A program made the translations under genes and the position numbers. A DNA stretch of 50,460 bases from an uncultured Cytophagales bacterium (GTDB lineage Bacteria; Bacteroidota; Bacteroidia; Cytophagales; UBA9547). Positions 10,507-34,979 of the stretch are shown in pieces (positions within the stretch are counted from its first letter, which is position 1; each line of letters begins with the position of its first letter). Under the pieces are notes generated by a model. That model did no database searches and was not told where the DNA came from. It saw only the letters and a program-made list of their open reading frames with translations. Location: assembly GCA_945957555.1 (NCBI GenBank), contig CAMFLX010000017.1, positions 1-50,460 of the forward strand, in the 5' to 3' direction.

Positions 10507-12168
10507 TTAAATATACAACTTCTCATAGTACTCCCTTGCCATTCGAGCGCTATCAAAACCCTCCACCACTTCTAGCATGGCCTTTTTCTGGATTTGGGTC
10601 CATTGGAGTGGGTCGTTGTAATACATAGGGATGATCTCGTTTTCCAAGAGGGCCATCATCGTTTGGTATTCCTCTTCATCGCGCTGTTGTTCACTGAGCG
10701 ATTCATCTGCATGTTTTATCACAAAAGCGTTTTCATTATGTTTGGCAAACTCCGGCACCCAGCCATCGTCTACACTGAGATTGATGCTCCCATTCATAGC
10801 GGCAGTCATACCACTCGTACCCGAAGCCTCATGTAGGTATCTTGGGGTGTTAAGCCAAATATCTGAACCTTTCTTAAGCTTTGCAGACAGATCCAATTCG
10901 TAGCCTACCAACACCGCACAACGGGTCAAGCCCCTCGTCTCGTCTTGAATCCAGTGAAACTGGTCTATATCGTAATACGAACGTGGATAGGGCTTGCCAG
11001 CCCAGATCACCTGTATGTTCTCTTTTTCGCGAAGTACCAAACGGTGAAAACGTTCTATATCTTTAAGCAATAGCCAAGCTCTCTTGTAACCTGCAAATCG
11101 CCTCGCCCAGACTATGGTGAGCACCTCTGGATCGAACTTTTTACCTGTTTGAGCCTCTACTACTTTAAACAACTCCTTTTTAAGTTCCTTTTTACGTTCG
11201 GCCAATTTTGCATCGTCATTACTTTTCAATGCAAGTTTCAATACCTGATCTTGCCAGTAAGCACTATTCTGCGCATTGGTAATTGGGATCAGATCCAATT
11301 CTCCTCTCAAATGCCCGTACAAACGTTCCTGACATACCTTGGCATGAAGTTTTGAAACGGCATTTTCTCTCTTTGCAATCTTAAAAGCTGTTTCAGTATA
11401 TTTAAAAAGGCCATTGTAAACAATGGACACTTCATCCACTCTATTGCTAGGCACATTACCAAAGAAAGACATGTCCCAAAGCTGATGAACAGGCCTACTT
11501 TCATTGCCGGCCAACTCAGGCGTATGTGTAGTAAATACCGTCCTTTGTTTTACAGCCTCCCAGTTTTGGTATTTTTCATATAAACTATAGAGGACTGGCA
11601 AACCGTGTGACTCGTTTAGATGCCAGATCTCTGGCTCTATCTCTAGTGTGTCAAAAAGCTGTTTTGCCCCAGCACCCAACACTATAGAGGCCCCAATGCG
11701 TGCAAGATCTTCGGCATCGTACAGATTTATAGTAGTGGTACGCGCCAAATAATCATTTTCAGGCGTATCGGTACTCAACAGGAAAACGGGAACTGTATGG
11801 AACGTATCAGGTGCTAAAAGCCAAACCTTCACTTTAACAGGGCTCTTGGCAATAGTAACCGTAAGTATAATTTCTGTGTCTATGAGTCCTGCGTGTTCAT
11901 GTGGGGTAAACTGCACTTGCATTTTACCTTGTGCATCAAAAATCTGGTCATAGTAACCATTGGTCCACAAGATTCCTACACCTATCATATTATGTTTGAG
12001 TTCGTAGGCACTTCTCATGTGCGAGCCTGCCAAATAACCCAAACCACCAGAATAGATCTTGAGGGATTGGTCTATGGCAAACTCCATGGAAAGATAAACT
12101 ACCAACTTCTGATAAGCTGCATCTATTTGATAGTTACTAAGGATTGATTTAACTTTTTCTAATGACAT
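10507..12168 (-). CDS. Alpha-glucan phosphorylase-family protein (GT35-like) lacking the PLP lysine
   Basis: A 553-residue protein of the short alpha-glucan phosphorylase family, which normally degrades glycogen or maltodextrin to glucose-1-phosphate. Recognisable parts are EFAIDQSLKIYSGGLGYLAG (N-terminal domain), HLNESHG, the phosphate/glucan-binding VWARRFAGYKR, and EASGTSGMTAAMNGS. In canonical phosphorylases this last motif is EASGTxxMK, and its Lys forms the Schiff base with pyridoxal phosphate. Here Thr455 occupies that position (codon at 10804-10806), so classical PLP chemistry looks impossible unless the lineage has found another way. No glycogen synthase or branching enzyme is nearby. 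A -7 box lies at 12223-12230. Confidence 0.8.
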   Translation of the reverse strand: MSLEKVKSILSNYQIDAAYQKLVVYLSMEFAIDQSLKIYSGGLGYLAGSHMRSAYELKHNMIGVGILWTNGYYDQIFDAQGKMQVQFTPHEHAGLIDTEIILTVTIAKSPVKVKVWLLAPDTFHTVPVFLLSTDTPENDYLARTTTINLYDAEDLARIGASIVLGAGAKQLFDTLEIEPEIWHLNESHGLPVLYSLYEKYQNWEAVKQRTVFTTHTPELAGNESRPVHQLWDMSFFGNVPSNRVDEVSIVYNGLFKYTETAFKIAKRENAVSKLHAKVCQERLYGHLRGELDLIPITNAQNSAYWQDQVLKLALKSNDDAKLAERKKELKKELFKVVEAQTGKKFDPEVLTIVWARRFAGYKRAWLLLKDIERFHRLVLREKENIQVIWAGKPYPRSYYDIDQFHWIQDETRGLTRCAVLVGYELDLSAKLKKGSDIWLNTPRYLHEASGTSGMTAAMNGSINLSVDDGWVPEFAKHNENAFVIKHADESLSEQQRDEEEYQTMMALLENEIIPMYYNDPLQWTQIQKKAMLEVVEGFDSARMAREYYEKLYI

Positions 12169-21009: not shown

Positions 21010-22851
21010 ATGGATCAAACAGCTTACATCAACGAAGAACTTAAGGGCAGAATGCTTAGGCACGTTTCTGCAATATGGGGCGTACGCAATACCGACGCAT
21101 TAGACCCATTAGTCAGGTTACTAGTAGAGGCTATAGCAGGTGAGCTCCAAAAAACACATCATGAAATAGACAATTTCGAAAAACGAATTCTAGAGAAAAT
21201 CGCAATCCTCCTTACCCCTGGTATATTATCTTCTCCATATCCGGCTCATGCGGTAGTCCATGCACAACCCATCGAGTCTACCCACACCATAACCACAAAA
21301 ACGCACTTTTTCCATTCTAAGAAAATAGCTAACGAAAAGGAACCACCTCACGACTTGTTTTTCACACCAGTTGTAGACATGAAACTCTTCAATGGCTATG
21401 TGAAATACATTGTTTCTGGAAGTAAGGCATTTGTGATGGACAGCCCACTTCAAAAATCAATATATATCAACGGGCAACAGCGGACAGAGTACAACAATTC
21501 TATTTGGATCGGACTCAAACTTGATGACAACATTAAAAATCTAGAAAAGTTAAGTTTTTACATAGATTTCAAAAATACGGGATATAAACAACAACTCTTT
21601 GCGCTATTTCACTCCAGCCAATGGTTTGTAGATAAGCATCAATTGCAAATGGGCAAAGGTACCATGTACAATCATGCACTCAAAAAGGCTGAATTATTCA
21701 CCGATTTTGATACCATGCACTTGCTGGAGAAAGAGATTGCTCACTTATATGACGAACAATTCATCAGTATAGAAGACGCCACATTCCAAATTAACGAGCA
21801 GACGAGAACTCGTCACCCTAAGGAATTTGATGCAATTTTTAACAAAGGAGATCTTGTCAAATTTACAGAAGACCTCCTTTGGGTCAGAATCATAACGCCA
21901 AGTATTGTAGAAGAACGCATGCTTATAGACATGTTTGTATCTATTAATGCATTCCCTGTATTGAACCGAAAACTCAATAAACTTCACTATAGACTCAAGA
22001 GCATTACCAATATCATTCCTATAAAATCGTCTCAGTACGATTATTTTATAGCAGTAGACTCGCTTAAAGACGCATTTGGCAAGACTTACAAGCAAATCCC
22101 ATACTCAGAGGACGATAACGAACTTACTGGCACCTATTCCATAAGAAAAAGTGGTACCGAAAGAATTGATGCTCGTAGCTCCAAAGAATACTTAAGATAT
22201 TTGATCGAGTTGGTCAGGGATGAGTCCGTAGCATTTGCAAGCTATGGTCAAGACACGATCACTTCACTGTCTAAAGAACTAGACAAAATCTTAGCACAAA
22301 TAGAGCAGCGTGTAAAGCAAAGCAAAAGCCTACATACAGACTCGCACTACTATGTAACAGTAGAGTCTAGCAATAATACAGAGGTCTTTTTTATGGATTA
22401 TTGGACTACCAACAGCATCCACGCCAACAGTATACATGCTGGTGTGAAACTTCACCTTTATGAGGGTACTGAAATCAAGGCAGGATCAACGGTATTTTTA
22501 TCCACCACATCAGGAGGCAAGGGTGGCTTAGAACCTGCCAGACACGTAGATGCGTACAAATATGCAGTACTGAGCCATAACAAAATAGTAACCGTAGAGG
22601 ATATCAAAGCATTCTTCTATTATGAACTAGGTGACAAAATAGATCAAGTAAATGTACGAAAGGGGTTGATCAATAGCGAAAATCCAAAAGAGGGTTTAAT
22701 TAGATGCGTAGAAATTGAGCTTGTCAAGAAAAAAAATGGGGCATCGGATCTTGATCCTGCAGAATGGGAATCTCTATTAAATAGGTTAAAGTCCAAGATG
22801 GAACTCAGATCTTCATTAAATATGAATTTTGTACTTAAACTTTCCGAATAG
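21010..22851 (+). CDS. tssF: T6SS baseplate subunit TssF
   Basis: A 613-residue TssF/VasA-family protein, the wedge subunit that links the T6SS baseplate to sheath and spike. Family traits are the N-terminal helical block (KGRMLRHVSAIWGV, then LVRLLVEAIAGELQKTHHEIDNFEKRILEKIAILLTP at about residues 37-73), the long beta-rich middle, and the C-terminal segment with SLYDGTEI-like HLYEGTEIKAGSTVFLSTTSGGKG. Length is normal. It ends five bases before the stop of the convergent tssG with no terminator between, so the 3' ends of both transcripts probably overlap. Confidence 0.85.
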   Translation: MDQTAYINEELKGRMLRHVSAIWGVRNTDALDPLVRLLVEAIAGELQKTHHEIDNFEKRILEKIAILLTPGILSSPYPAHAVVHAQPIESTHTITTKTHFFHSKKIANEKEPPHDLFFTPVVDMKLFNGYVKYIVSGSKAFVMDSPLQKSIYINGQQRTEYNNSIWIGLKLDDNIKNLEKLSFYIDFKNTGYKQQLFALFHSSQWFVDKHQLQMGKGTMYNHALKKAELFTDFDTMHLLEKEIAHLYDEQFISIEDATFQINEQTRTRHPKEFDAIFNKGDLVKFTEDLLWVRIITPSIVEERMLIDMFVSINAFPVLNRKLNKLHYRLKSITNIIPIKSSQYDYFIAVDSLKDAFGKTYKQIPYSEDDNELTGTYSIRKSGTERIDARSSKEYLRYLIELVRDESVAFASYGQDTITSLSKELDKILAQIEQRVKQSKSLHTDSHYYVTVESSNNTEVFFMDYWTTNSIHANSIHAGVKLHLYEGTEIKAGSTVFLSTTSGGKGGLEPARHVDAYKYAVLSHNKIVTVEDIKAFFYYELGDKIDQVNVRKGLINSENPKEGLIRCVEIELVKKKNGASDLDPAEWESLLNRLKSKMELRSSLNMNFVLKLSE

Positions 22852-22856
22852 AGAGT

Positions 22857-23795
22857 CTATAACACGGCATTTACGCCCAAGAGCACAGAAGTATTGTCCA
22901 ATTTAAATTCACTGGTTTGTTTGTCAACAACAAACTCTTTGTAAACATAGTAATTGGCCGAAACAAAGTAATCCATCAAATCCTCAATGATTCCATTATT
23001 CTTGCCTCCTATCGAATAATCGACGAATTCGCTTGGAGTCAATGGCCCCAGTTTTACCAAAACATCTAATTCTCCATCATTGACTACAGTTCCTAAAGTT
23101 GTATTGATCCCCAACTGGGCTTCACCCACAGGAACAGGCTCGTATAAGTTTCTAGTAATATAATGTTTATAAAGACTCACCTCTACATCAATACCCAAAA
23201 TCAAACTTATACTCTTGGAGATAAGGTCAAAATCATTTCTAATCGCATGGATGAGAGGAATAATCCTTAAAAAAATGTACGCATGTCGTGTATCCAACCT
23301 CTTCAAAATTGGCCATCCCTCAGAAAATACACTAATGAGCTTAGAATTATCAATATTCTTTTCAAAATCTTCTTCTAAACTATAAAGAAGGGCTTTTACA
23401 TGATTGTATTCATATTCAAAGGGCAAAAAGAACTGACGCGCACTTTTTTCTTCACGTCTGTGCCTCTTGATTTCATCAATGACTTCATACTTATTCTTCT
23501 CGGTCTTGCCTCTTGTTGGTTGGTGAAAAATATTTTCAGGCAAAGCGTCATACAAACCATCTCGATGCGTATGTAGAAAAATATAATCTTTGTTGTCGTA
23601 ACTAAGAGAATCAATATGGAAACCTGAGACCTCCTTCCTGTAGGCCCGCTTGGACATACTCTCTGATTGTACTATAATTTGATCAGGATGTATCCCCTCT
23701 TTTACAAGTGCCGATACAAGTGCTTCAACACGGTAGTCTGTATCTAGATCTAATATGTTGTACCTAAGTCGCTCTAATGTTTCCTCTTTGATCAT
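22857..23795 (-). CDS. tssG: T6SS baseplate subunit TssG
   Basis: A 312-residue TssG/VasB-like baseplate protein. The N-terminal half is helical (TLERLRYNILDLDTDYRVEALV, then FFLPFEYEYNHVKALLYSLEEDFE). The C-terminal half carries the family's AQLGINTTLGTVVNDGELDVLVKLGPLTPSEFVDY block (about 225-258). Together with TssE and TssF it forms the wedge of the baseplate. It is the last gene of the seven-gene minus-strand operon, 11 bp behind tssR, and faces tssF tail to tail. Sequence similarity in this family is low, so the assignment rests on the C-terminal block and context. Confidence 0.75.
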   Translation of the reverse strand: MIKEETLERLRYNILDLDTDYRVEALVSALVKEGIHPDQIIVQSESMSKRAYRKEVSGFHIDSLSYDNKDYIFLHTHRDGLYDALPENIFHQPTRGKTEKNKYEVIDEIKRHRREEKSARQFFLPFEYEYNHVKALLYSLEEDFEKNIDNSKLISVFSEGWPILKRLDTRHAYIFLRIIPLIHAIRNDFDLISKSISLILGIDVEVSLYKHYITRNLYEPVPVGEAQLGINTTLGTVVNDGELDVLVKLGPLTPSEFVDYSIGGKNNGIIEDLMDYFVSANYYVYKEFVVDKQTSEFKLDNTSVLLGVNAVL

Positions 23796-23806
23796 TACAA
23801 ACAGAG

Positions 23807-26236
23807 TTATGGCAAATAATCCTCTGAAACCCAGTAATATGGAATACCATTGGAAATATAAATATACTTGTCGTTGTCACGGAGTGAATAATATTTCTGC
23901 AACTTCTTATTCATATTATCCAAAATGGACTTGAACTCTCCATCATTATTCGCCATCGGACTTGTAAGCTTGTTAATGTTAAATGCATTCATCGCATTAT
24001 TATCTGGAGTATAGCCACATACTTCATGAAAGAACCTAGCTAATGAAATATCCTTAGAGATTGTATTCTGTTTTTTAGCTGAATAAGTATCAATTACTTT
24101 ATTAATCGATCTAAAGCAGTTCATCTTGCCTGCATCATCGTATTGAGTAGCAAGAATATCAAACTTAAGGCTCTTAAACATATCATACAGCTCATTGTAC
24201 TCATCTCGAGAGAGCAACAAACTCTGCTTGTAGTATTTGGTTGCATTATTAGGATCTTTAGGAACAATGGTATAACCCGTTGCAAAATAATTATAGTTAA
24301 TGCTCTTCAAAGATGAATACGCATCCTTATTAACCATTTCTAAGGAACTATAGTATCTTTCAAACAGTTTATTAACATTGCTATTAAACACCGTTGGGCT
24401 ATTAAATACGCTACTAATGGATTTGATGAGGTTCTTATTATCGGTATCCACCTGTACGATTAGACTATCAATCGCATCATTTAAATACTTCCCTTCAGTT
24501 TTATTACCCACCGTAGGGAATACTATAAATCCTTGTGAAACAGAATTTTGCGGATAATCCAAACAATAAACGTTGTTAGCACCCGTAATCAACCCTTTAA
24601 AACTATTTGCATTCGCATTTTCAAGATTACTGCCGACCATTTTTTCACGTTTATAAACGGATATCTTCTCTGTCGATCTTTTGATGAGAGATTTGGCTTC
24701 CTGAACAAATGCAGAGTAATTATTGCCATTACCATTATAAGGTTGATAAAAAATCATCCTTGCGTTACTTTTGGCCAACTCATCAGTAATCTTCTCAGAT
24801 GCTCCCTTGTAAGTCGCATCTCCAAATCCTGCATCAGCCTGACTGCTGATTACTACAACAATATTCGTTTCTTTTTCTAAACCCTTAAATAATTTATTAG
24901 CGTTAGTAAGCCCATTCACTATACCTAAAGCAGCTGCTGTCTTTTTGTTTTCAACGCTACCTTTTGCCATATTAATGAGCTTTGGTAGTATATCCGAATA
25001 TTTATCTTTAAGTTCAGGCGTTTCTGAAAAAAAAGCAGAACAATTTACTGTTCCATACTTAAAATTATATTCATCGTTTTTAGAACTAAAAAAATTACTA
25101 AGCTCTTGGATCGTATTAGTAAGTGCATATAGATATTCCTTGGTGTCATTGTCCATATTGATGGCAAAAACAATGTTAATGTTTTTACTCTTGTCAATTA
25201 ATTCACAAAGCTTTGAATAATTCAATTTCGCGCCATTGATATTATAAATATAACTATCCGTCCTATCAAATGGATTAAGTACCACACCCGACTTAATGAT
25301 TTTATATTTACCATTATTATCATTAAAGTACTCTATATTAAACACAGGTGTCTTTGACCACAAATGCTCTTGCACATCGCACCCCAACCTTACCATAGGA
25401 TAACTGATGGCGCCATTTAATCTGAAAGTTTTGGCTTGTTCAATATTTGAATATAGGGCAGTCTGAGAAATAATTTTTGGCGAATTGTCTGCCGGCTCTA
25501 TACACAATCTAGCACCCCATGATTGAACCAACCCAGCATGGGTCCAACCTATAATCTGCTTTGAGGCGTCACTTGGCGAAAAACTACTTTTTTTACCAAT
25601 AAGTACACGGTCTTTATATTGCCTATACACGTATACTATTTGATCAAAATCTTGCGCACCAGTGTCAATCTTTGCTGTGAGTTCTGGATCAGAATAAATC
25701 TGAACCTTTGACCTGTCAGTAAATTTCCTCACATTATCAAAGATTTTACCACTAGTCAACATGGTTACATACTTCAATGGCCTTTTCGTTGCAGCATCAA
25801 CCAAACTATTATCGGCCAATACTAAATGTGAACGATCTATCCATCCTACTGTTTCAACTTTATCAGGCTCTATTATAGAATTAGGAAATTTAAGATTGCC
25901 AGGGTTATACTTTATCAATTCAAATGCATCACCCACAACATTTGCAACGTAAAAACTATCCAAAAATTTAACCTTGCCAATCGCCTTGGAAAACTTAGCA
26001 TCTGCAAATACTACATTCTCATTGCGATCAGAATACACCACCCATGGCTGATCCAAAGTGCTTTTATTATCCAACAATGGATTGGTTGGATATGCATATA
26101 TATATGGTTCCTTCTCAACCTTTTTTATTTTAGCAGAAGAAAACTTTGGCAATTGTGAATGAGCATTAAATACTACAAATAATATACAAACAGAACAAAT
26201 TATGCCCCTCAATGTCATATAACGCGTTTTTTCCAT
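23807..26236 (-). CDS. tssR: T6SSiii envelope component TssR
   Basis: An exported protein of 809 residues with a signal peptide (about 12-28, ICSVCILFVVFNAHSQ). The N-terminal third is beta-rich and SH3-like, with PWVVYSDRNENVVF and two VGWIDRSHLVLAD/IGWTHAGLVQSW blocks. The middle (about 345-530) looks like a von Willebrand A-type fold (NINIVFAINMDNDTKEYLYALTN, later TNIVVVISSQAD). The C-terminal third is helical. This plan fits TssR, one of the proteins specific to the Bacteroidota T6SSiii, which works with TssN, TssO, TssP and TssQ as the trans-envelope complex replacing TssJLM. It lies between the PKD protein and tssG with short gaps. Confidence 0.75.
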   Translation of the reverse strand: MEKTRYMTLRGIICSVCILFVVFNAHSQLPKFSSAKIKKVEKEPYIYAYPTNPLLDNKSTLDQPWVVYSDRNENVVFADAKFSKAIGKVKFLDSFYVANVVGDAFELIKYNPGNLKFPNSIIEPDKVETVGWIDRSHLVLADNSLVDAATKRPLKYVTMLTSGKIFDNVRKFTDRSKVQIYSDPELTAKIDTGAQDFDQIVYVYRQYKDRVLIGKKSSFSPSDASKQIIGWTHAGLVQSWGARLCIEPADNSPKIISQTALYSNIEQAKTFRLNGAISYPMVRLGCDVQEHLWSKTPVFNIEYFNDNNGKYKIIKSGVVLNPFDRTDSYIYNINGAKLNYSKLCELIDKSKNINIVFAINMDNDTKEYLYALTNTIQELSNFFSSKNDEYNFKYGTVNCSAFFSETPELKDKYSDILPKLINMAKGSVENKKTAAALGIVNGLTNANKLFKGLEKETNIVVVISSQADAGFGDATYKGASEKITDELAKSNARMIFYQPYNGNGNNYSAFVQEAKSLIKRSTEKISVYKREKMVGSNLENANANSFKGLITGANNVYCLDYPQNSVSQGFIVFPTVGNKTEGKYLNDAIDSLIVQVDTDNKNLIKSISSVFNSPTVFNSNVNKLFERYYSSLEMVNKDAYSSLKSINYNYFATGYTIVPKDPNNATKYYKQSLLLSRDEYNELYDMFKSLKFDILATQYDDAGKMNCFRSINKVIDTYSAKKQNTISKDISLARFFHEVCGYTPDNNAMNAFNINKLTSPMANNDGEFKSILDNMNKKLQKYYSLRDNDKYIYISNGIPYYWVSEDYLP

Positions 26237-26259
26237 TTACTGTAAATGTAATATATTAA

Positions 26260-27159
26260 TTAGTGCTGTACAATGATAATTTTGGATGCACAGTTTGTTT
26301 TAGGATTGATCTCTGGTGTTACCTGATCAATTTTAACCCCAGAATTAATCTGTAAACCCTGACAATAACTATAAAAATCTGAAGTAGTTTTTCCGTTTAC
26401 CAAAACAGGGACTTTTGAATTATTACACAAAAATTTACTCACTAAAAAGTTGTAGTGGACACTAAAGTTTGCACCATTCGCAAGCGCTTGCAACCTTGAT
26501 TTGAACTCATCAGTTTCCCCACCACCACCTCCACCACCTTTAGGAGCAGCTTTGGGTACAGGCACAACATTTTCAGTTACTTTATATTCTGGTGAAATAC
26601 TTACCTTATAAGTTACAGGCTTTTGAGGATTAAGATTGGTAATCAATTTAACACTGAATTCTCCTACCTTATTAAAAGCATAAAAAGCTTCATGACCACG
26701 AGCATCAATCTTTCCACTCTCACCAAAATACCACTCACACCACTCAATATTACCTCCCATAGCCCTGAAATGTATCTTTTGATTTACAATGCCTGACTTA
26801 TTAGCGTAAACATAGACTGTTGAGTCTCTTTTATAAACTAATGCCGGCTTATTTACAGTAACCATAAAGGTATCGTTCTTCTCATTATTCACAGTTACAC
26901 GCACAATATATCTGCCTGGCACTTTAAATTTGTATGAACCCTTACGCCTTGAAGACTTGCTACCATTACCAAACTCCCAAAGCGTACTGTTCGCATCACT
27001 TGTGCTGTCGGCAAAAAAAATCTCCTCATTTACCGAAATTACTCTTGGATATACCGAAGCTCTCATTGGCACCTGAGTAAAGGCCGAAATTATAAAATAC
27101 AGGATAGAGGCCAGCGCTATGTAAATGCCAAATGTTGTAAGTGCTAACTTATTATTCAT
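26260..27159 (-). CDS. PKD-domain membrane protein of the T6SSiii envelope complex (probable TssP)
   Basis: A 299-residue single-pass inner-membrane protein. One N-terminal helix (about 7-29) anchors a periplasmic part with two PKD/Ig-like domains: about 35-105, with STLWEFGNGSKSSRRKGSYKFKVPG, and about 110-195, with EWCEWYFGESG...AFNKVGEFSVKL. After a Pro/Ala and seven-Gly linker comes a C-terminal domain of about 80 residues with three Cys. By position in the operon and topology it is the best candidate for TssP, but that name is inference, since no TssP motif could be recalled with certainty. It has gaps of 4 bp and 23 bp to its operon neighbours. Confidence 0.6.
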   Translation of the reverse strand: MNNKLALTTFGIYIALASILYFIISAFTQVPMRASVYPRVISVNEEIFFADSTSDANSTLWEFGNGSKSSRRKGSYKFKVPGRYIVRVTVNNEKNDTFMVTVNKPALVYKRDSTVYVYANKSGIVNQKIHFRAMGGNIEWCEWYFGESGKIDARGHEAFYAFNKVGEFSVKLITNLNPQKPVTYKVSISPEYKVTENVVPVPKAAPKGGGGGGGETDEFKSRLQALANGANFSVHYNFLVSKFLCNNSKVPVLVNGKTTSDFYSYCQGLQINSGVKIDQVTPEINPKTNCASKIIIVQH

Positions 27160-27163
27160 GACC

Positions 27164-27685
27164 TTACTCGTTGTTTTTGTTATTATTTAATGCCTCTTGT
27201 AAAGTAATATTATTTTGTGTCTGCTGGAAACCAATCTCACAATCAGTCAAGTTCTTTTTCAACGAATTGCTGTTATTAGTGGATACCCATGTCGCCTTTT
27301 TATCAAAGTAATACATTTCAAATAAATCAGCAATTTGAAGATATACCCTATACCCTACATTGTTCTTCTTTTTCTCATAGGCCTTCCTCAACTCTGCTAA
27401 CTCATAATTAATTCCACTCTCCAGATATACTTGACTCGTTCCAGGATTGAATTGCATTAACATCCTATTGAGCGTATCTACATGTTTTTCATTAATTTTT
27501 TGCTCTTGGGCAATAATCTTCTGCTCCTCAAGCTGTTCCAAAACCACATGCATGCCACGGACTTCTTTAGTTTCAAACTTGTTAAAACATACAAACCAAA
27601 ACAAAATAGTTGTAAACACCCATAAAACTACCAAGTAAATGAGTTGAACATTTTTTTCCTCTGTACTAATTTTAAATAAATTCAT
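27164..27685 (-). CDS. Single-pass coiled-coil protein of T6SSiii (second TssO-like)
   Basis: A 173-residue protein with a short cytosolic N-terminus, one membrane helix (about 17-36, IYLVVLWVFTTILFWFV) and a periplasmic helical region with coiled-coil character (VVLEQLEEQKIIAQEQKINEKHVD, then ELRKAYEKKKNN). The C-terminal tail is rich in Asn. Size and topology copy the neighbouring TssO gene, but sequence similarity is slight by eye, so it may be a paralogue or a distinct envelope subunit. It lies 15 bp after tssO and 4 bp before the PKD gene and is surely cotranscribed. Confidence 0.6.
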   Translation of the reverse strand: MNLFKISTEEKNVQLIYLVVLWVFTTILFWFVCFNKFETKEVRGMHVVLEQLEEQKIIAQEQKINEKHVDTLNRMLMQFNPGTSQVYLESGINYELAELRKAYEKKKNNVGYRVYLQIADLFEMYYFDKKATWVSTNNSNSLKKNLTDCEIGFQQTQNNITLQEALNNNKNNE

Positions 27686-27700
27686 GATTTAAGATAGCTT

Positions 27701-28183
27701 TTAGCGATTTCTCAATTTGGCATTTGCTTGATTACACTCCATCAATTTCTTTTTATTAGCTTCCTCTTCATCTATAGTTTGGCTTAAAGTCTTTTTAGCA
27801 TCTAAGATGATTTCTACATTAGCCAAAACCTTCCTGTATAAAATAAAATCATTGATTCCCTCCGCTTCCAATGCCGTAAGATCGTCCATTGTATCATATT
27901 TAATTTTAAGGATTGCACGCTCCAATGCAGCATCGTTCTTCACCTGCTTAGTATTAAGTATTTGCATAAACATCGCCAAGCTATCTATCCTTGAGGAAAG
28001 TTCCGCCTTTTTCTTGATAAGAAACTCTATCTTGTCCTTTTTTTGAGTCAAAACTGTAACATACTTGTCGTAGGTTTGCAGATACAAAAAACGACATAAA
28101 ACCGTAAAAAATAAAAGAATGGAAAAATAGACGATAAAAAACCAATACCTTTTATATATGTCGTTACTATTTAATGCTTTCAT
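27701..28183 (-). CDS. tssO: T6SSiii transmembrane protein TssO
   Basis: A 160-residue protein with one N-terminal membrane helix (about 13-31, YWFFIVYFSILLFFTVLCRF) and a periplasmic part that is almost entirely helical (KKDKIEFLIKKKAELSSRIDSL, later VEIILDAKKTLSQTIDEEEANKK). This matches TssO, a component of the Bacteroidota-specific membrane complex that docks the baseplate to the envelope. It follows tssK by 15 bp. The assignment uses topology, size and its place directly after tssK; residue-level evidence is weak. Confidence 0.62.
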   Translation of the reverse strand: MKALNSNDIYKRYWFFIVYFSILLFFTVLCRFLYLQTYDKYVTVLTQKKDKIEFLIKKKAELSSRIDSLAMFMQILNTKQVKNDAALERAILKIKYDTMDDLTALEAEGINDFILYRKVLANVEIILDAKKTLSQTIDEEEANKKKLMECNQANAKLRNR

Positions 28184-28198
28184 ATAATACGTTTGTTA

Positions 28199-29359
28199 TT
28201 AATCCAAAATACTCCACTTCTTTTTGGGAGGTTCAACTACTGGCTGTACCGTTTCCTTAGCAACTACAATATTTTCTTTATGCTGTCCAATAAATTCAAG
28301 GGTATTTAGTTTTGTCCAAATCCCTTCGAACATATTTAAAAACTGCCTAATAGCTAATAGTGATTCAGCGATATTATAATGATTATAACGAACCTCAAGA
28401 GCACCCAATAAAGCTTGCTCCTGATCATTAGGAGTAATGTCACACCATTCAAATATATACTTAAGCAATTCCTCCTTTTCATCAGGATTTATACACTGCA
28501 GTGTTGTATAAAGAGTATTTGCCAAAGATGAAAAGCAACCAACCAAATAAATAGGAGACTGATGAGGCATCTCATTTTTGAAACTATAATATACATTTGA
28601 AGTATAAGCAGCCAAATCTTTGCACAAAATCATGAAATTTTTGGCTATACTCGATGGCTTATTTTTTTCATGGATCTTTCTTATAATCTTCAAAGAGATG
28701 CCCTGCAAATTTTGCAAACTACCAGCAAATGCCTCATAGTTTTGTATTAATGCAGGATGGCTTGTGATAGTTGTACAAGGTGGGATATAACTAGTCAAAA
28801 CTGACAAATTGCCTCCAGTATTTTTAATTCTACCCAAGACCATGTAATAAGCACCTAGTTCTCTTATATTCAATTGATCACTGGCTACAATTTGCACCGT
28901 ATATCTATTGTCGGAGTATGGATGCCTAGGCGGATTTTCCTCCAAAGATGGACTACCTACTGGCACTCGAGTATATGGATCTGCGATTAATATCACCTCA
29001 TACCATGAAACTTCATTATTATTTACAGAGTGATCTGAACTTCCTTTGATTGATGCAACAAATGTTGGCATGTCATATTGTTGAGCATCCACCGATATCC
29101 GAAAACCACCTGGAGTTATCGCATCACAATACCTTAGTTTCGCTTCAATTGTATTTGCAGCGTTCTCGTGAATCTGAATTTCAAACGTATTTTTCCCTGT
29201 GGAAGAGGGAAGCAAACCAAAATTATAATTGGTAAGATGAATGGAAGCATTATCCCTGATCAAATCATGAAAATGCCTATCTGAATCAACGAAATGGTCT
29301 TTAGAGATTTTCATCCCATCAACCCAATTAACTGGCAGATTTTTTACTGGAAATATCAT
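28199..29359 (-). CDS. tssK: T6SS baseplate adaptor TssK
   Basis: A 386-residue cytosolic TssK/VasE-family protein. TssK trimers connect the baseplate wedges to the membrane complex. The N-terminal shoulder reads LPVNWVDGMKISKDHFVDSDRHFHDLI, the counterpart of the conserved W-x-x-G-M-x-x-x-x-x-H-F segment, followed by the beta-rich domain with YNFGLLPSS and YCDAITPGGFRI. The middle is helical (about 215-350). The C-terminal tail ends in a Pro/Lys-rich linker (EPPKKKWSILD). It sits between tssN and tssO, as expected if it bridges to the envelope proteins of this subtype. Confidence 0.85.
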   Translation of the reverse strand: MIFPVKNLPVNWVDGMKISKDHFVDSDRHFHDLIRDNASIHLTNYNFGLLPSSTGKNTFEIQIHENAANTIEAKLRYCDAITPGGFRISVDAQQYDMPTFVASIKGSSDHSVNNNEVSWYEVILIADPYTRVPVGSPSLEENPPRHPYSDNRYTVQIVASDQLNIRELGAYYMVLGRIKNTGGNLSVLTSYIPPCTTITSHPALIQNYEAFAGSLQNLQGISLKIIRKIHEKNKPSSIAKNFMILCKDLAAYTSNVYYSFKNEMPHQSPIYLVGCFSSLANTLYTTLQCINPDEKEELLKYIFEWCDITPNDQEQALLGALEVRYNHYNIAESLLAIRQFLNMFEGIWTKLNTLEFIGQHKENIVVAKETVQPVVEPPKKKWSILD

Positions 29360-29378
29360 AGGGCAATCTTTTCTTTGT

Positions 29379-30245
29379 TCAATATTGTATCTTATCCACT
29401 CTCTTGCAAATTACTGATTGAGCATCGTCGTCAGCCAACCCATTTTCAGCAATTGTTTTTTCGAAATCAATATACCGCTTCCCTTGTATCAATGAGGGCG
29501 TGGTATAAAATATCCAACCATACATTTCACCATTATCTTGTTGAAAACAAATAGGACTCTCGTGATATTTGATATTGTAATCGTGAATGAACATTTGGAA
29601 CCAATCGCCAAAAGTGAAACCATGAGGAGCCCTCGCTTTTACTTTAATATAATCAGTATCCTCAGGTCGTTTACTCAATTCAACTTTTAGTACAACTATC
29701 TTTTCTGAAGTCTCAGAGGTAAACAATGGATCAACATAGTTCAAATCATATTTCCAAATTTTATAAATCTCAGCTGGTATATTAAGTAAAGCTGTATGAC
29801 TCCACTTAAACAACATTGGCAAAATCAATGTATAAGTGCATGTACTAGCCCATAAACCATAATCGAAATCACCCAAATAATTAAATATCAATGAAAATAA
29901 ATAACTTCCTAATGTGAGTATACACAGTGTTGTTAGAACAATCATAAATTTGTTCATTAATTCATTACTTCCAGAGAAATAATCAAAAATCTTTTCCATG
30001 TAAAAATACCCAAGTACGACGAAGACACATTGAGTAATTAAATAAAAGGTAGGCATGAAAGACAGGCCAGTAAGAGTTGCTATACCTGGTAAAGCCACAA
30101 TCAAACTTGAAATAAGTATAAAAATAATTAATGCCCTATTTGACAAAAAGTTATTCTTTTTGTTCATTATAAGCATAATCGTTACTAAAAGTAATGATAT
30201 TAAAGGGTACAGTAAATGGGAAACAAAGATGTCTTTTATTTTCAT
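29379..30245 (-). CDS. tssN: T6SSiii multi-pass membrane protein TssN
   Basis: A 288-residue inner-membrane protein with about six hydrophobic helices in the first 155 residues (YPLISLLLVTIMLIM, ALIIFILISSLIVALPGIA, FYLITQCVFVVLGYFYM, FMIVLTTLCILTLGSYLFSLIF, CTYTLILPMLFKW), followed by a cytosolic domain of about 130 residues (VVLKVELSKRPEDTDYIKVKARAPHG...). The plan is that of TssN, specific to T6SSiii and thought to anchor the envelope complex and contact TssK. It is the first gene of the minus-strand operon and diverges from clpV. Confidence 0.75.
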   Translation of the reverse strand: MKIKDIFVSHLLYPLISLLLVTIMLIMNKKNNFLSNRALIIFILISSLIVALPGIATLTGLSFMPTFYLITQCVFVVLGYFYMEKIFDYFSGSNELMNKFMIVLTTLCILTLGSYLFSLIFNYLGDFDYGLWASTCTYTLILPMLFKWSHTALLNIPAEIYKIWKYDLNYVDPLFTSETSEKIVVLKVELSKRPEDTDYIKVKARAPHGFTFGDWFQMFIHDYNIKYHESPICFQQDNGEMYGWIFYTTPSLIQGKRYIDFEKTIAENGLADDDAQSVICKRVDKIQY

Positions 30246-30593
30246 GTCTATGCACTAATCAACACTTAGGATTGTACTGCAATTTGAAAGTTATGAGGAG
30301 GAAGAATAGCTCAATTGCAAGGTATAAAGTGTAAAGTTATTTAAAAATATTTCACATATATCATTTTGCACACAAAATTAGTTTTTTTTTCCTTTCCAGC
30401 TAAAAAAACGTAAAAAAAACTTTTTTAAAGAAAAAAAAATCACAATATTGCATAATAAAATTGTTACTCAACAAATAACAAGAATGCGAGTAAATTGTTC
30501 TTAATATCATGATCAATACGGCAACAGGCTTTTACCCCTACCAATCGAATATGAATGTTATGACAAAAAACAACTTAAGTATTACATTATAAT
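30246..30593. promoter_or_regulatory. Divergent tssN/clpV promoter region with phased A/T tracts
   Basis: This 348-bp gap must hold the promoters of both large T6SS operons. A TAATTTTG (-7-like) box for the tssN side lies at 30373-30380. Just to its right are runs of T or A at 30382-30390, 30402-30408, 30412-30419, 30421-30426 and 30431-30439, with centres about one or two helical turns apart, the kind of spacing that bends DNA. No clear box was found for clpV. No gene or RNA was seen. Confidence 0.4.
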
Positions 30594-33137
30594 ATGTTTA
30601 ACGGTCTCAATATCAGCGAAAATCTACGCGACGCTATAAGAATAGCACAAGCATTTGCCAAAGAAAATAAAAATGAAGTTATTGGAGTGTCACACATGCT
30701 CAGGGCTCTCATGCACAAGGATGCAGGCTTACACCCATTTTTAAATGCAATTAATAAAGATATCGCTTATATTTCTGAATGGGCCGAAGTACGAATAGAT
30801 GAGTATAGTAAAGTAAATACTACTCCAGAAATTCTAAATGCCGATAATAAACTTGTAGGCATATTTGAAGAGGCAGAAAACATACGCCTAAGACTAGGCC
30901 TAGATCTTACAGATTGTATTTGTGTGCTTATTGCTTTGGTAAAACCAAATTATGGTTATAGTGTAGATCAACTTAAGTCTTTACCATTAAGGGAAAAAGA
31001 GATTCTAGATACATTTATTGACAATTCAAATGTAAAAAAAACATTTGCGTCATCCATATTACCCAATGAAGGTAATCAAAATCAACTTTCTGGAGCATTG
31101 TATAGCTACTGCATAGATAAAAATGCAAGGGCAAAAGAGGGTAAGCCTGATCCTGTAGTGGGGCGTGATAAAGAATTGATGATGATGATTGAAATACTAG
31201 GAAGACGTAGTAAGCCCAATGTCATCTTAGTTGGAGAGCCTGGAGTAGGAAAATCGGCATTAGTTGAGGGCTTTGTGCAGAAAATTATTTCGGGACAGGT
31301 ACCCACACTACTTAAATCATCCATTGTATTTGAATTAGAATTAGGTGCACTCTTAGCAGGGGCTTCATACAAAGGCGAGATCGAGGATCGTTTAAAAAAG
31401 ATCATAAAAGATCTCAAACAGTTAGATAAAGCCATACTCTTCATTGATGAACTTCACACACTATTGGACAGTAAAGGCTCTGTAGGATCAGGTGTGGCTA
31501 ACTTGCTCAAACCAGAATTAGCAAGGGGTGAGTTAACCATTATTGGTGCAACTACACAAGAAGAATTCCGGAAAATCATAGAACCAGATGCGGCTTTTAG
31601 TAGAAGATTCGAGACACTCAATGTCCCAGAACCTGATCACATCACTGCTACAAAGATGATCCAGTCCTTACTTCCTAAATACGAGGAGCACCATGGCATT
31701 AAAGCAAGTGCTCAAGTATTGAAAGAAGCAACTAGACTAGCTAAAAGGTATATAAAAGACAAAAGGCTACCCGACTCTGCAGTTGATCTATTAGATAGGA
31801 CTTTGGCAGCGGTAAAGATGATGAATGAAACATCACTAAACGAACTCAAGGAAGTAGAGGAATCCATTAGCAAAATTAATCAGGACGTAGAAATACCTGA
31901 AGAGGAAAAAATACAGGAGCTAAAATGGCAACACCATACACTTTTGAGCAAATTAAGTCCTGTCCTGCTAGGTCAAATTGAAAATACTGAAGATGTGAAC
32001 CAAATGGAAACATCTAACCAAGTATTAACTGAACTTCACAATCTTTTAGAGAAACTTAAATACTCATTAAAAATTGTCAAGAGTGAAATCACACCTCAAG
32101 ACATTGCTGCCATCATCGCACATAAAACAGGGATTCCAGTTGGCAAAATACAAACACAAGAAAGAGACAAACTGCTTAACATTGAACCGCACCTTAGAAA
32201 AAGAGTTATCGGCCAAAATCATGCGATAAAAATCTTGTCCGACACTATCGTCGAATCAAGAAGCGGTATTAATAAACAGGGCCAACCCATTGGATCTTTC
32301 TTTTTTCTGGGACCCACAGGTACTGGGAAAACTGAACTTACAAAAGCCATCGCCGAATTCCTATTCAATGATGAAAAGGCAATGATAAGATTTGACATGT
32401 CTGAATTTAAGGAAGAACACTCGGCGGCTTTACTTTATGGAGCGCCTCCTGGATATGTTGGATATGAAGAAGGAGGTATGCTCGTTAATAAAATAAGACA
32501 ACAACCTTATTCAGTTGTACTGTTTGATGAAATAGAAAAGGCACATAGTTCGGTATTTGACACCTTTTTACAGATTATGGACGAGGGAACTCTTCACGAT
32601 AAACTGGGTAAAGAAGGTGATTTCAGTAATTCTATTATCATATTCACTTCAAATATTGGAAGCGAATGGATTGCTGAACAAATCTCAAACGGAATACTGC
32701 CTACGTCTCAGCAACTTATGGAAATTATGAGTAAATACTTTAGGCCAGAGTTTTTGGCCAGAGTAAGCGAAATCATTCCATTTGCACCAATAAGTGAAAA
32801 AAATGTAGTGAAAATCTTAGAAATTCAATTGAAATCACTTCTTGATAGTCTTCAAAAGCTAGGCATAGAATTGGAACTAAGCAATGAAGCCAAGAGTGAG
32901 CTTGCTACTTCTGGGTTCACTCCAAAATATGGAGCAAGACAACTGACCTCTGTAATAAGAAACAGATTGAGGAGACCTATTGCAAGGATGCTTGTTGGCG
33001 GTGAATTGATCAAAGGAGATCATTTAAAGATTTACAAAACTGAAGAAAACAAAGAATTGACTTGGGAAATTGAAAGAGATAGCAAAACCTTTGTCATAAA
33101 TAAAGAAACTAAATTAGAAGAAGAAGTTAAACTTTAA
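30594..33137 (+). CDS. clpV: T6SS sheath-recycling AAA+ ATPase ClpV/TssH
   Basis: An 847-residue Clp/Hsp100 ATPase that disassembles the contracted TssBC sheath. The ClpN-type domain (about 1-145) precedes AAA1 with Walker A GEPGVGKS (214-221) and Walker B LFIDE (Asp285, Glu286), a middle coiled coil (about 405-500) and AAA2 with Walker A GPTGTGKT (573-580), Walker B VVLFDE (Asp645, Glu646) and the small domain ending PKYGARQLTSVIRNRLRRPI. Its placement directly upstream of tssB and tssC identifies it as ClpV rather than ClpB. It opens the plus-strand sheath/tube operon. Confidence 0.92.
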   Translation: MFNGLNISENLRDAIRIAQAFAKENKNEVIGVSHMLRALMHKDAGLHPFLNAINKDIAYISEWAEVRIDEYSKVNTTPEILNADNKLVGIFEEAENIRLRLGLDLTDCICVLIALVKPNYGYSVDQLKSLPLREKEILDTFIDNSNVKKTFASSILPNEGNQNQLSGALYSYCIDKNARAKEGKPDPVVGRDKELMMMIEILGRRSKPNVILVGEPGVGKSALVEGFVQKIISGQVPTLLKSSIVFELELGALLAGASYKGEIEDRLKKIIKDLKQLDKAILFIDELHTLLDSKGSVGSGVANLLKPELARGELTIIGATTQEEFRKIIEPDAAFSRRFETLNVPEPDHITATKMIQSLLPKYEEHHGIKASAQVLKEATRLAKRYIKDKRLPDSAVDLLDRTLAAVKMMNETSLNELKEVEESISKINQDVEIPEEEKIQELKWQHHTLLSKLSPVLLGQIENTEDVNQMETSNQVLTELHNLLEKLKYSLKIVKSEITPQDIAAIIAHKTGIPVGKIQTQERDKLLNIEPHLRKRVIGQNHAIKILSDTIVESRSGINKQGQPIGSFFFLGPTGTGKTELTKAIAEFLFNDEKAMIRFDMSEFKEEHSAALLYGAPPGYVGYEEGGMLVNKIRQQPYSVVLFDEIEKAHSSVFDTFLQIMDEGTLHDKLGKEGDFSNSIIIFTSNIGSEWIAEQISNGILPTSQQLMEIMSKYFRPEFLARVSEIIPFAPISEKNVVKILEIQLKSLLDSLQKLGIELELSNEAKSELATSGFTPKYGARQLTSVIRNRLRRPIARMLVGGELIKGDHLKIYKTEENKELTWEIERDSKTFVINKETKLEEEVKL

Positions 33138-33148
33138 ATATTAAGTGT

Positions 33149-33601
33149 ATGGCAATGTACAATTATGGTATAGGTGGCAATGAGGTAAAAGTAGATGCTT
33201 CCGAGGCGATATCAGAAATCGCTAACAATAAAACGATGCTAATACAAAAACTAACAGTTAATGATCCTCCCAAACCAGAAGCGGTTTACGATCTTAAAAC
33301 TGTAGAAGATGTATTCGCACATTACAAACCAGAAGTCGAGGTAGAATTCGAAACAAAAGAAGGCGCTAATAAAACTGAAAAATTTCAGTTTGCTAACTTA
33401 GGAGATTTTGGAGCAAAAAAAATAATCGAACATAGTAATTTCTTAACAGAACTCAACACTGAAGTTGATCAGTACAGTAGGATTTCAAAACAATTCAAAA
33501 GCAATAAAGTACTACAGTCTATAGCAAGCAACCCCGAAACAAAACAAGCACTTGCAGAAGCATTAGCGGCACTTTTACACGAATTAAACGCTCAAGATTA
33601 A
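33149..33601 (+). CDS. tssB: T6SS sheath small subunit TssB
   Basis: A 150-residue TssB/VipA-type protein that pairs with TssC to build the contractile sheath. Seen features are the beta hairpin region with KTMLIQKLTVNDPPKPEAVYDL (about 28-49), VEVEFETKEG, and the helical C-terminus that binds TssC (LNTEVDQYSRISKQF, then SNPETKQALAEALAALLHELN). It starts 11 bp after clpV and ends 7 bp before tssC, so stoichiometric coexpression is likely. The first of two closely spaced ATGs is used. Confidence 0.85.
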   Translation: MAMYNYGIGGNEVKVDASEAISEIANNKTMLIQKLTVNDPPKPEAVYDLKTVEDVFAHYKPEVEVEFETKEGANKTEKFQFANLGDFGAKKIIEHSNFLTELNTEVDQYSRISKQFKSNKVLQSIASNPETKQALAEALAALLHELNAQD

Positions 33602-33608
33602 GACAGAA

Positions 33609-34979
33609 ATGGCATCACAAAATAAAAATACTCAAGATTCCCAACAACTAGGTTTCAAGACTAAAGAGGAAGCCAGTTCAGCTTTGGAAAACAGTTTAAA
33701 TAAACTTGTAAAAGCTGGAGGATTCTCCTTTTTGGAAAATGTAATTGATGGTTTACCAAATTTAAATCCAGAAAGAAAAGCTCGCAAAAATATCTTTTTA
33801 AGTGATCCCGCAAAAGCAAACGAAAGGGAACAACTTAAAAAAAGACTTGGTATATGGCTTGAATTGCTCGGCGAATCAGAGTCGGTTGCTGACATTGTTG
33901 AAAAAAGTGAAAAGAAGGCTGAGGAATCGGACAAATTACTAAACAAAAACCTAGGTCTCGCACTAGATGTCGTAAGAGAGCTCGAACAAAATTATCGCTC
34001 AGTAGCCTTATTTTATAAAAATACCGAATCAGATAAACTGAAGAATGTAACTGTCCTTAACGCGTCATTAGATCAGGTAACGGATCTAGATAATTCAAGA
34101 TTTATTGATTACGTTGCTGAAGAGCTTAAACAAAATTACGATAGACTAGATCTTAGGGACAACTATTCACTACTTGTGATCCCAGGATATATGGGACCTA
34201 ATAAAGTGATTGAAAAATGGGCCAAAATTGCGCATGAGAACAAGGTAATGCTCGTGACGGATTTCGCAAACCTAGACACTCCTGACGATGTAATTGATCT
34301 TTTTACAGAAGGTAATTACACAGGAGGAGACGTTTACAGATCTAATGTGATCATGGCCTGCAATTGGTTAGTGGGTAGAGGCAAAGTAGAACAAGCTGGA
34401 GAAACAGAAGACCTATTTGTACCACCATCGGCAGCTCTAGCAGGCAAAATGTATTATACCATGATGTCGCAAGTGACAGCGGGTAAGAAACATGGTAGTA
34501 TGAATGAAGTTGATGCTGTTCACTTCGACCTTAAAAAAAGTGAAATTTCAAACCTTGAAAAATTGGGTCTAGTTCCAATGGTAAATGAATACGGTAAGGT
34601 AATGGCTTTCTCGGCAAAAACACTTTTCAACGGTGATAACCTTGGTTTGCAGACTTATTCAGTAGTACGTGTATTTGACTATATCACAAAAGTGCTTTTT
34701 GACTTCCTTAACAGACGCGCTTTTGAAAACTGGACATCAAAACTAGAAGCAGACTTGAGGAGTCAAATTGTTAAGTTTTTGGACGGCATACAAGGCCCCG
34801 ATAGACTTATTGAAAAATTTAAAATTTTAAAATTAGAACAAGATCCAAATCAAAAAGACAGGGTTTTGATCGACATACATATCACCCCATATTTCCCAGC
34901 CAAAAGCTTTGTTGTGAAGCTAGATGGACAAAAGGGAGATGATGGCACTGCATGGAACAGCGAGTACAAACAATCATAA
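33609..34979 (+). CDS. tssC: T6SS sheath large subunit TssC
   Basis: A 456-residue TssC/VipB-family protein, the large subunit of the contractile sheath. Recognisable blocks are NYDRLDLRDNYSLLVIPGYMGPNKVIEKWAKIA (about 176-208), the segment with VIMACNWLVGRGKV, and the C-terminal FDYITKVLFDFLNRRAFENWTS and VDIHITPYFPAKSF-type strand. The N-terminal 120 residues are helical and charged, as usual in the Bacteroidota version. It is followed by the tube gene tssD after a 40-bp gap. Confidence 0.88.
   Translation: MASQNKNTQDSQQLGFKTKEEASSALENSLNKLVKAGGFSFLENVIDGLPNLNPERKARKNIFLSDPAKANEREQLKKRLGIWLELLGESESVADIVEKSEKKAEESDKLLNKNLGLALDVVRELEQNYRSVALFYKNTESDKLKNVTVLNASLDQVTDLDNSRFIDYVAEELKQNYDRLDLRDNYSLLVIPGYMGPNKVIEKWAKIAHENKVMLVTDFANLDTPDDVIDLFTEGNYTGGDVYRSNVIMACNWLVGRGKVEQAGETEDLFVPPSAALAGKMYYTMMSQVTAGKKHGSMNEVDAVHFDLKKSEISNLEKLGLVPMVNEYGKVMAFSAKTLFNGDNLGLQTYSVVRVFDYITKVLFDFLNRRAFENWTSKLEADLRSQIVKFLDGIQGPDRLIEKFKILKLEQDPNQKDRVLIDIHITPYFPAKSFVVKLDGQKGDDGTAWNSEYKQS

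Follow-up and report, generated by a model that had tools for sequence, protein, structure and literature searches.

A 553-amino-acid α-glucan phosphorylase homologue, encoded in the 50,460-nucleotide stretch of an uncultured Cytophagales genome analysed here (the window), is a member of the GT35 sequence family TIGR02094, yet it lacks the defining residue of pyridoxal phosphate (PLP)-dependent GT35 enzymes: the lysine that forms the PLP Schiff base is replaced by Thr455. The same position is occupied by threonine or serine in all 66 distinct members read of a well-supported clade, found in Bacteroidota and some Akkermansia, whose genes are publicly annotated as glgP. We tentatively read the protein as an active α-glucan phosphorylase that operates without Schiff-base PLP, a reading to which we give a little under an even chance and in which phosphorolysis is predicted from genome context. 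No lysine-less GT35 clade was found described in the open papers searched, subscription papers lying outside the scope of that search.

Threonine at the PLP-lysine position

The gene (10507..12168, minus strand; ORF 12168..10507) was assigned by profile searches, with scores of 374.9 bits against TIGR02094 (curated cut-off 191.7) and 54.8 against PF00343 (cut-off 27), compared with only 51 bits against TIGR02093 (cut-off 552.9) and 45 bits against the GlgA profile TIGR02095 (cut-off 328.45). Around the site, the ORF reads EASGTSGMTAAMNG. The motif runs from E447 (Escherichia coli MalP E638) through A-S-G-T-S-G-M to T455-A-A-M-N459 (10792..10830, minus strand), with E447, G450 and T451 kept in 65/65 sequences of the clade. 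Thr455 itself (codon ACT, 10804..10806, minus strand) was aligned to E. coli MalP Lys646 and E. coli GlgP Lys662 in two MAFFT alignments, unambiguously so because the alignment is gap-free from EASGT to the following Asn. A sequencing error does not explain the residue, because both lysine codons (AAA and AAG) are two changes away from ACT and 66 distinct relatives all carry threonine or serine. In MalP, Lys646 is the lysine of the PLP Schiff base (PMC11046441). The original prediction, which had placed threonine at the PLP lysine and described the HLNESHG (residues 183–189) and WARRFAGYKR (354–363) blocks as intact, was borne out on both points, and the neighbouring lysine that it had envisaged as a possible stand-in at the PLP site did not appear: alignment with relatives revealed no extra lysine inserted within the motif near Thr455. 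The PROSITE phosphorylase pattern likewise contains this lysine.

The clade resembles other TIGR02094 α-glucan phosphorylases (GT35; PDB 9l6i and 20yr; archaeal and bacterial GlgP/MalP) in profile, in sugar and phosphate residues, in the EASGTSGM-x-A-x-N motif and in its gene neighbours, but differs from the lysine-bearing members (Lys types) in having threonine or serine for the PLP lysine together with substitutions, fixed in the clade, near what is presumably the site of the cofactor ring, and from the 850-residue forms in its length (about 550 residues, without the extra domains). The two nearest solved relatives, 9l6i and 20yr, keep the lysine (GTSGEKAEMNG). Likewise, the window protein matches E. 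coli MalP and GlgP and animal glycogen phosphorylase at the equivalents of MalP H346, N450, R535, Y539, K540 and E638, but carries Thr455 in place of K646 and is approximately 250 residues shorter.

A monophyletic threonine/serine clade

When 29 relatives and 395 genomes from the phylum were searched, the matches formed a discrete group of approximately 550-residue proteins at 45–55% identity, followed by a gap down to 35%. Members from the phylum search all belonged to the same class or order, a scan of genome contigs added Akkermansia MAGs (47% identity), and two further members are plasmid-borne, one in Runella rosea and one in Pontibacter actiniarum; no relatives were found in three scans of viral contigs. 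The clade includes the proteins WP_114070759 of R. rosea and WP_025603925 of P. actiniarum. Among the 75 distinct proteins read at the PLP-lysine position (a reading that left out 5 of the 46 phylum-search matches of at least 45% identity), the 66 group members had threonine (51) or serine (15) and never lysine, and those outside the group had lysine in 9/9 cases. In a maximum-likelihood tree, this threonine/serine (T/S) group was monophyletic (support 100/100) and its sister was a lysine-bearing 575-residue protein (98/98), with the other Lys types and the E. coli enzymes branching outside both. The suggestion that the substitution might be a clade-wide trait rather than a single mutation, and might be conserved among close homologues, was thus upheld in 66/66 distinct members. 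Because the T/S clade is monophyletic beside lysine-bearing GT35 proteins, the simplest reading of the tree is that the PLP lysine was probably lost once, from a lysine-bearing ancestor.

Genes of the T/S clade are under strong purifying selection, with pairwise dN/dS (NG86) of 0.006–0.057 where computable, dS being saturated in several pairs. Among T/S branches of the tree, the one leading to the window copy is the longest (0.93, versus 0.1–0.6 for most others), and functional drift of this copy is possible; it also departs from otherwise clade-invariant residues at G94 (for Phe), Y284 (for Trp) and S397 (for Asp). The T/S genes of Akkermansia MAGs from animal guts (L022–L031) nest within the Bacteroidota T/S group in the tree, which suggests that Akkermansia acquired the gene by horizontal transfer.

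At the active site, eight residues (H215, N298, R357, Y361, K362, E447, G450 and T451, equivalent in that order to MalP H346, N450, R535, Y539, K540, E638, G641 and T642) were conserved with at most one exception each among 65 T/S sequences, and the window protein has the full set of GT35 sugar and phosphate residues (MalP H346, N450, R535, K540 and E638). By ORF reading and alignment, these and neighbouring elements, all on the minus strand, comprise the SGGLG glycine loop (12037..12051; G41/G42, MalP G114/G115), the HLNESHG block (11602..11622; N185/E186, MalP N307/D308), TTHTP with H215 (11518..11532; 64/64 T/S sequences) and the phosphate- and PLP-phosphate-binding stretch R356-R357-F-A-G-Y361-K362-R363 (11080..11103), which supplies the equivalents of MalP K534, R535, Y539 and K540. 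In MalP, K534 and K540 have phosphate or PLP-phosphate binding roles (PMC11046441); the K534 position is taken by R356 in the T/S clade, as by arginine in other TIGR02094 enzymes.

Beyond Thr/Ser455, 22 positions show clade-fixed differences from the Lys types. These include P393-Y394 (10987..10992, minus strand; within AGKPYP, where Lys types have AGKAHP), G422 and E424 of G422-Y423-E424 (10897..10905, minus strand; D/N-Y-D/N in Lys types), Lys432 (10873..10875, minus strand; the MalP I623 equivalent, V/T/I/L in Lys types), M458 and F474. From what is known of MalP and glycogen phosphorylase, the changed segments, G422-Y423-E424 among them, probably flank the ring of PLP. The T/S clade thus appears to keep its PLP-phosphate and substrate-phosphate residues, while the ring and aldehyde side of the cofactor site looks rebuilt. 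AF2 models of the whole window protein (pLDDT 45.8 from 10 rows) and of its C-terminal domain (pLDDT 54 from 9 rows) had unusable pockets.

Glycogen genes and gene neighbourhoods

In the window's genome (98.6% complete), the T/S gene is the sole PF00343 or TIGR02094 match, accompanied by a eukaryote-like GT3 glycogen synthase (686.9 bits), a GlgB-like branching enzyme and a GDE_C debranching enzyme (440.6 bits); a strong GlgC and a full GlgA were both sought there and neither was found. The second canonical GlgP for which a genome search had been proposed was found neither in this genome nor in the relatives tested. Across 119 genomes drawn evenly from the class, the T/S gene occurred in 12 (one of which, G125, has two copies) and a Lys-type GT35 in 10 others; none of the 12 carried another kind of GT35, nor did any of 8 Akkermansia genomes with a T/S gene that were examined. 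The two types were mutually exclusive in this sample (0/12 overlap), but not significantly so (P = 0.6). A branching enzyme was present in 12/12 T/S genomes versus 14/107 others (P = 1 × 10−9), and all genomes with a full-length eukaryote-like GT3 carried the T/S gene (6/6, P = 3 × 10−7), both tests ignoring shared ancestry; a GT3 or GT5 synthase was found in 11 of the 12 T/S genomes. Because T/S genomes make glycogen, mostly with their own dedicated synthase, and have no other GT35, phosphorolysis is the step left without an enzyme. One genome (G102; locus L105) combines the T/S gene with a branching enzyme and a GDE debranching enzyme, without GT3 or full GlgA. The window's genome also encodes a protein that corresponds to the N-terminal half of a GT5 glycogen synthase and lacks the rest (G000:C1:102813-103472, L101; approximately 270–300 residues), but such half-proteins occur in nearly every genome of the 119, independently of glycogen genes, and this candidate partner was dropped because it is present whether or not the T/S gene occurs.

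Most chromosomal T/S loci showed no operon conserved across the clade. The T-type gene of Pontibacter is preceded by a type II GAPDH and DUF1622, and partners of Lys-type glgP include GAPDH in Pseudorhizobium and DUF1622 in Methylophaga (with glgX nearby); a phosphoketolase lies near T-type genes at two loci (L061 and L063) and adjoins the Lys-type gene of Criblamydia. Because these neighbours are common to both, T and Lys types fill the same kind of gene slot. More broadly, gene sets that combine glgP with a phosphoketolase, a type II GAPDH or DUF1622 recur on plasmids and chromosomes across phyla (L061, L063, L118, L120 and L122). A PNPOx-family ORF beside the Runella glgP was set aside as evidence for PLP, PF12900 being a broad family and the pairing being confined to Runella and a single near relative.

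Candidate reactions of the T/S clade

Glycogen phosphorylase is the textbook case of PLP acting only through its phosphate. A widespread clade without the lysine but with the PLP-phosphate residues would open two questions to direct test: which part of the cofactor the reaction requires, and whether PLP replaced a nucleotide. The T/S protein likely runs a PLP-free or non-covalent-PLP reaction. As a phosphorylase, it would be a GT-B enzyme in the glycogen phosphorylase role, interconverting glucan plus inorganic phosphate (Pi) and glucose-1-phosphate plus a shortened glucan; with PLP absent, Pi would be held by R357, K362 and the glycine loop and would attack from the front face, while a second anion might fill the conserved site of the PLP phosphate. 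The model for such an attack is the GT4 retaining trehalose phosphorylase (for example, of Schizophyllum commune), likened here by mechanism alone, as it belongs to a different family and acts on a different substrate: its Pi-dependent phosphorolysis is PLP-free, with an R-x4-K motif (PMC12018205), and Pi itself is the proton donor (PMC8950772). In addition, phosphate analogues featured in early rescue experiments with pyridoxal-reconstituted glycogen phosphorylase, as cited in PMC12018205, which suggests that the phosphate in glycogen phosphorylase need not be tethered. A phosphorylase without Schiff-base PLP is favoured because PLP-free retaining phosphorolysis has this precedent and the tether may be dispensable. 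Within the phosphorylase reading, the form that we favour by analogy is the PLP-free one, with front-face attack by Pi and perhaps a second anion, itself a tenable if doubtful proposal; a form holding non-covalent PLP or pyridoxine phosphate seems quite unlikely.

We count in favour of the phosphorylase reading the Thr/Ser invariance, the low dN/dS, the kept catalytic residues, the presence of a single GT35 kind, the glycogen genes and the Lys-type neighbours. Against it, we count that GT35 alone among phosphorylase families requires PLP, according to reviews (PMC4336185), that the co-occurrence statistics ignore shared ancestry, that the gene content of G102 fits a synthase role, and that the window copy evolves fastest among its T/S relatives. 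The main rival, which we consider somewhat unlikely, is a reversion to nucleotide sugars: the PLP pocket would accommodate the nucleoside phosphate of a sugar donor (UDP-, ADP- or GDP-glucose), and the protein would act as an α-1,4-glucan synthase. Such a reversion would mirror the origin that a review proposes for GT35, with PLP replacing a nucleoside monophosphate in a proto-GT35 (PMC11046441), and G102, with no GT3 or full GlgA for its branching enzyme, would suit it. Clade-fixed G422, E424, P393, Y394 and F474 fall in the segments presumed to flank the PLP ring, and P393, G422, D151 and D307 are identical to E. coli GlgA at those columns, but identity at 4 of the 22 positions is weak, and TIGR02095 scores are no higher for T/S proteins (none to 45 bits) than for Lys types (none to 41 bits). 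The T/S protein shares the GT-B fold with GT5 GlgA (whose R300, K305, E377 and Y355 align to R357, K362, E447 and Y423) but keeps GT35 motifs; a synthase is, moreover, already present in nearly all T/S genomes, and the gene neighbours are those of Lys-type glgP. That covalent PLP was lost and NDP-glucose came to fill the pocket, so that a former phosphorylase again makes glucan from nucleotide sugars or catalyses both reactions, is in our estimate unlikely.

Retention of Schiff-base PLP through another lysine is improbable: Lys432 is the only new clade-invariant lysine (65/65), but it sits some eight residues along the helix that follows Y423, which probably places it far from the pocket (a topology argument, the models being of low confidence), and Lys392, invariant in T/S and Lys-type groups alike, is found in Lys-type enzymes too and is therefore no replacement. 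We give a similarly small probability to a non-catalytic glucan-binding regulator or pseudoenzyme, for which the missing cofactor lysine, the scarcity of conserved operons at chromosomal loci and the fast-evolving window copy would speak; the catalytic residues are, however, clade-invariant under strong purifying selection, and glycogen-making genomes would be left without any GT35. The original prediction, which had offered a PLP-free retaining glycosyltransferase, a glucan-binding regulator or a dead enzyme, was therefore partly right: its clade-wide trait stood, its dead enzyme found no support, since essentially the whole clade keeps every other GT35 catalytic residue and selection is strong, and its options had omitted the phosphorylase without a Schiff base that genome context favours. 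The name glgP, which such genes now bear in many Bacteroidota and in some Akkermansia, may accordingly not describe their function.

Elsewhere in the window, positions 21010-34979 hold a Bacteroidota-type type VI secretion cluster with TssF-like, TssR, ClpV-like AAA ATPase and TssC genes.
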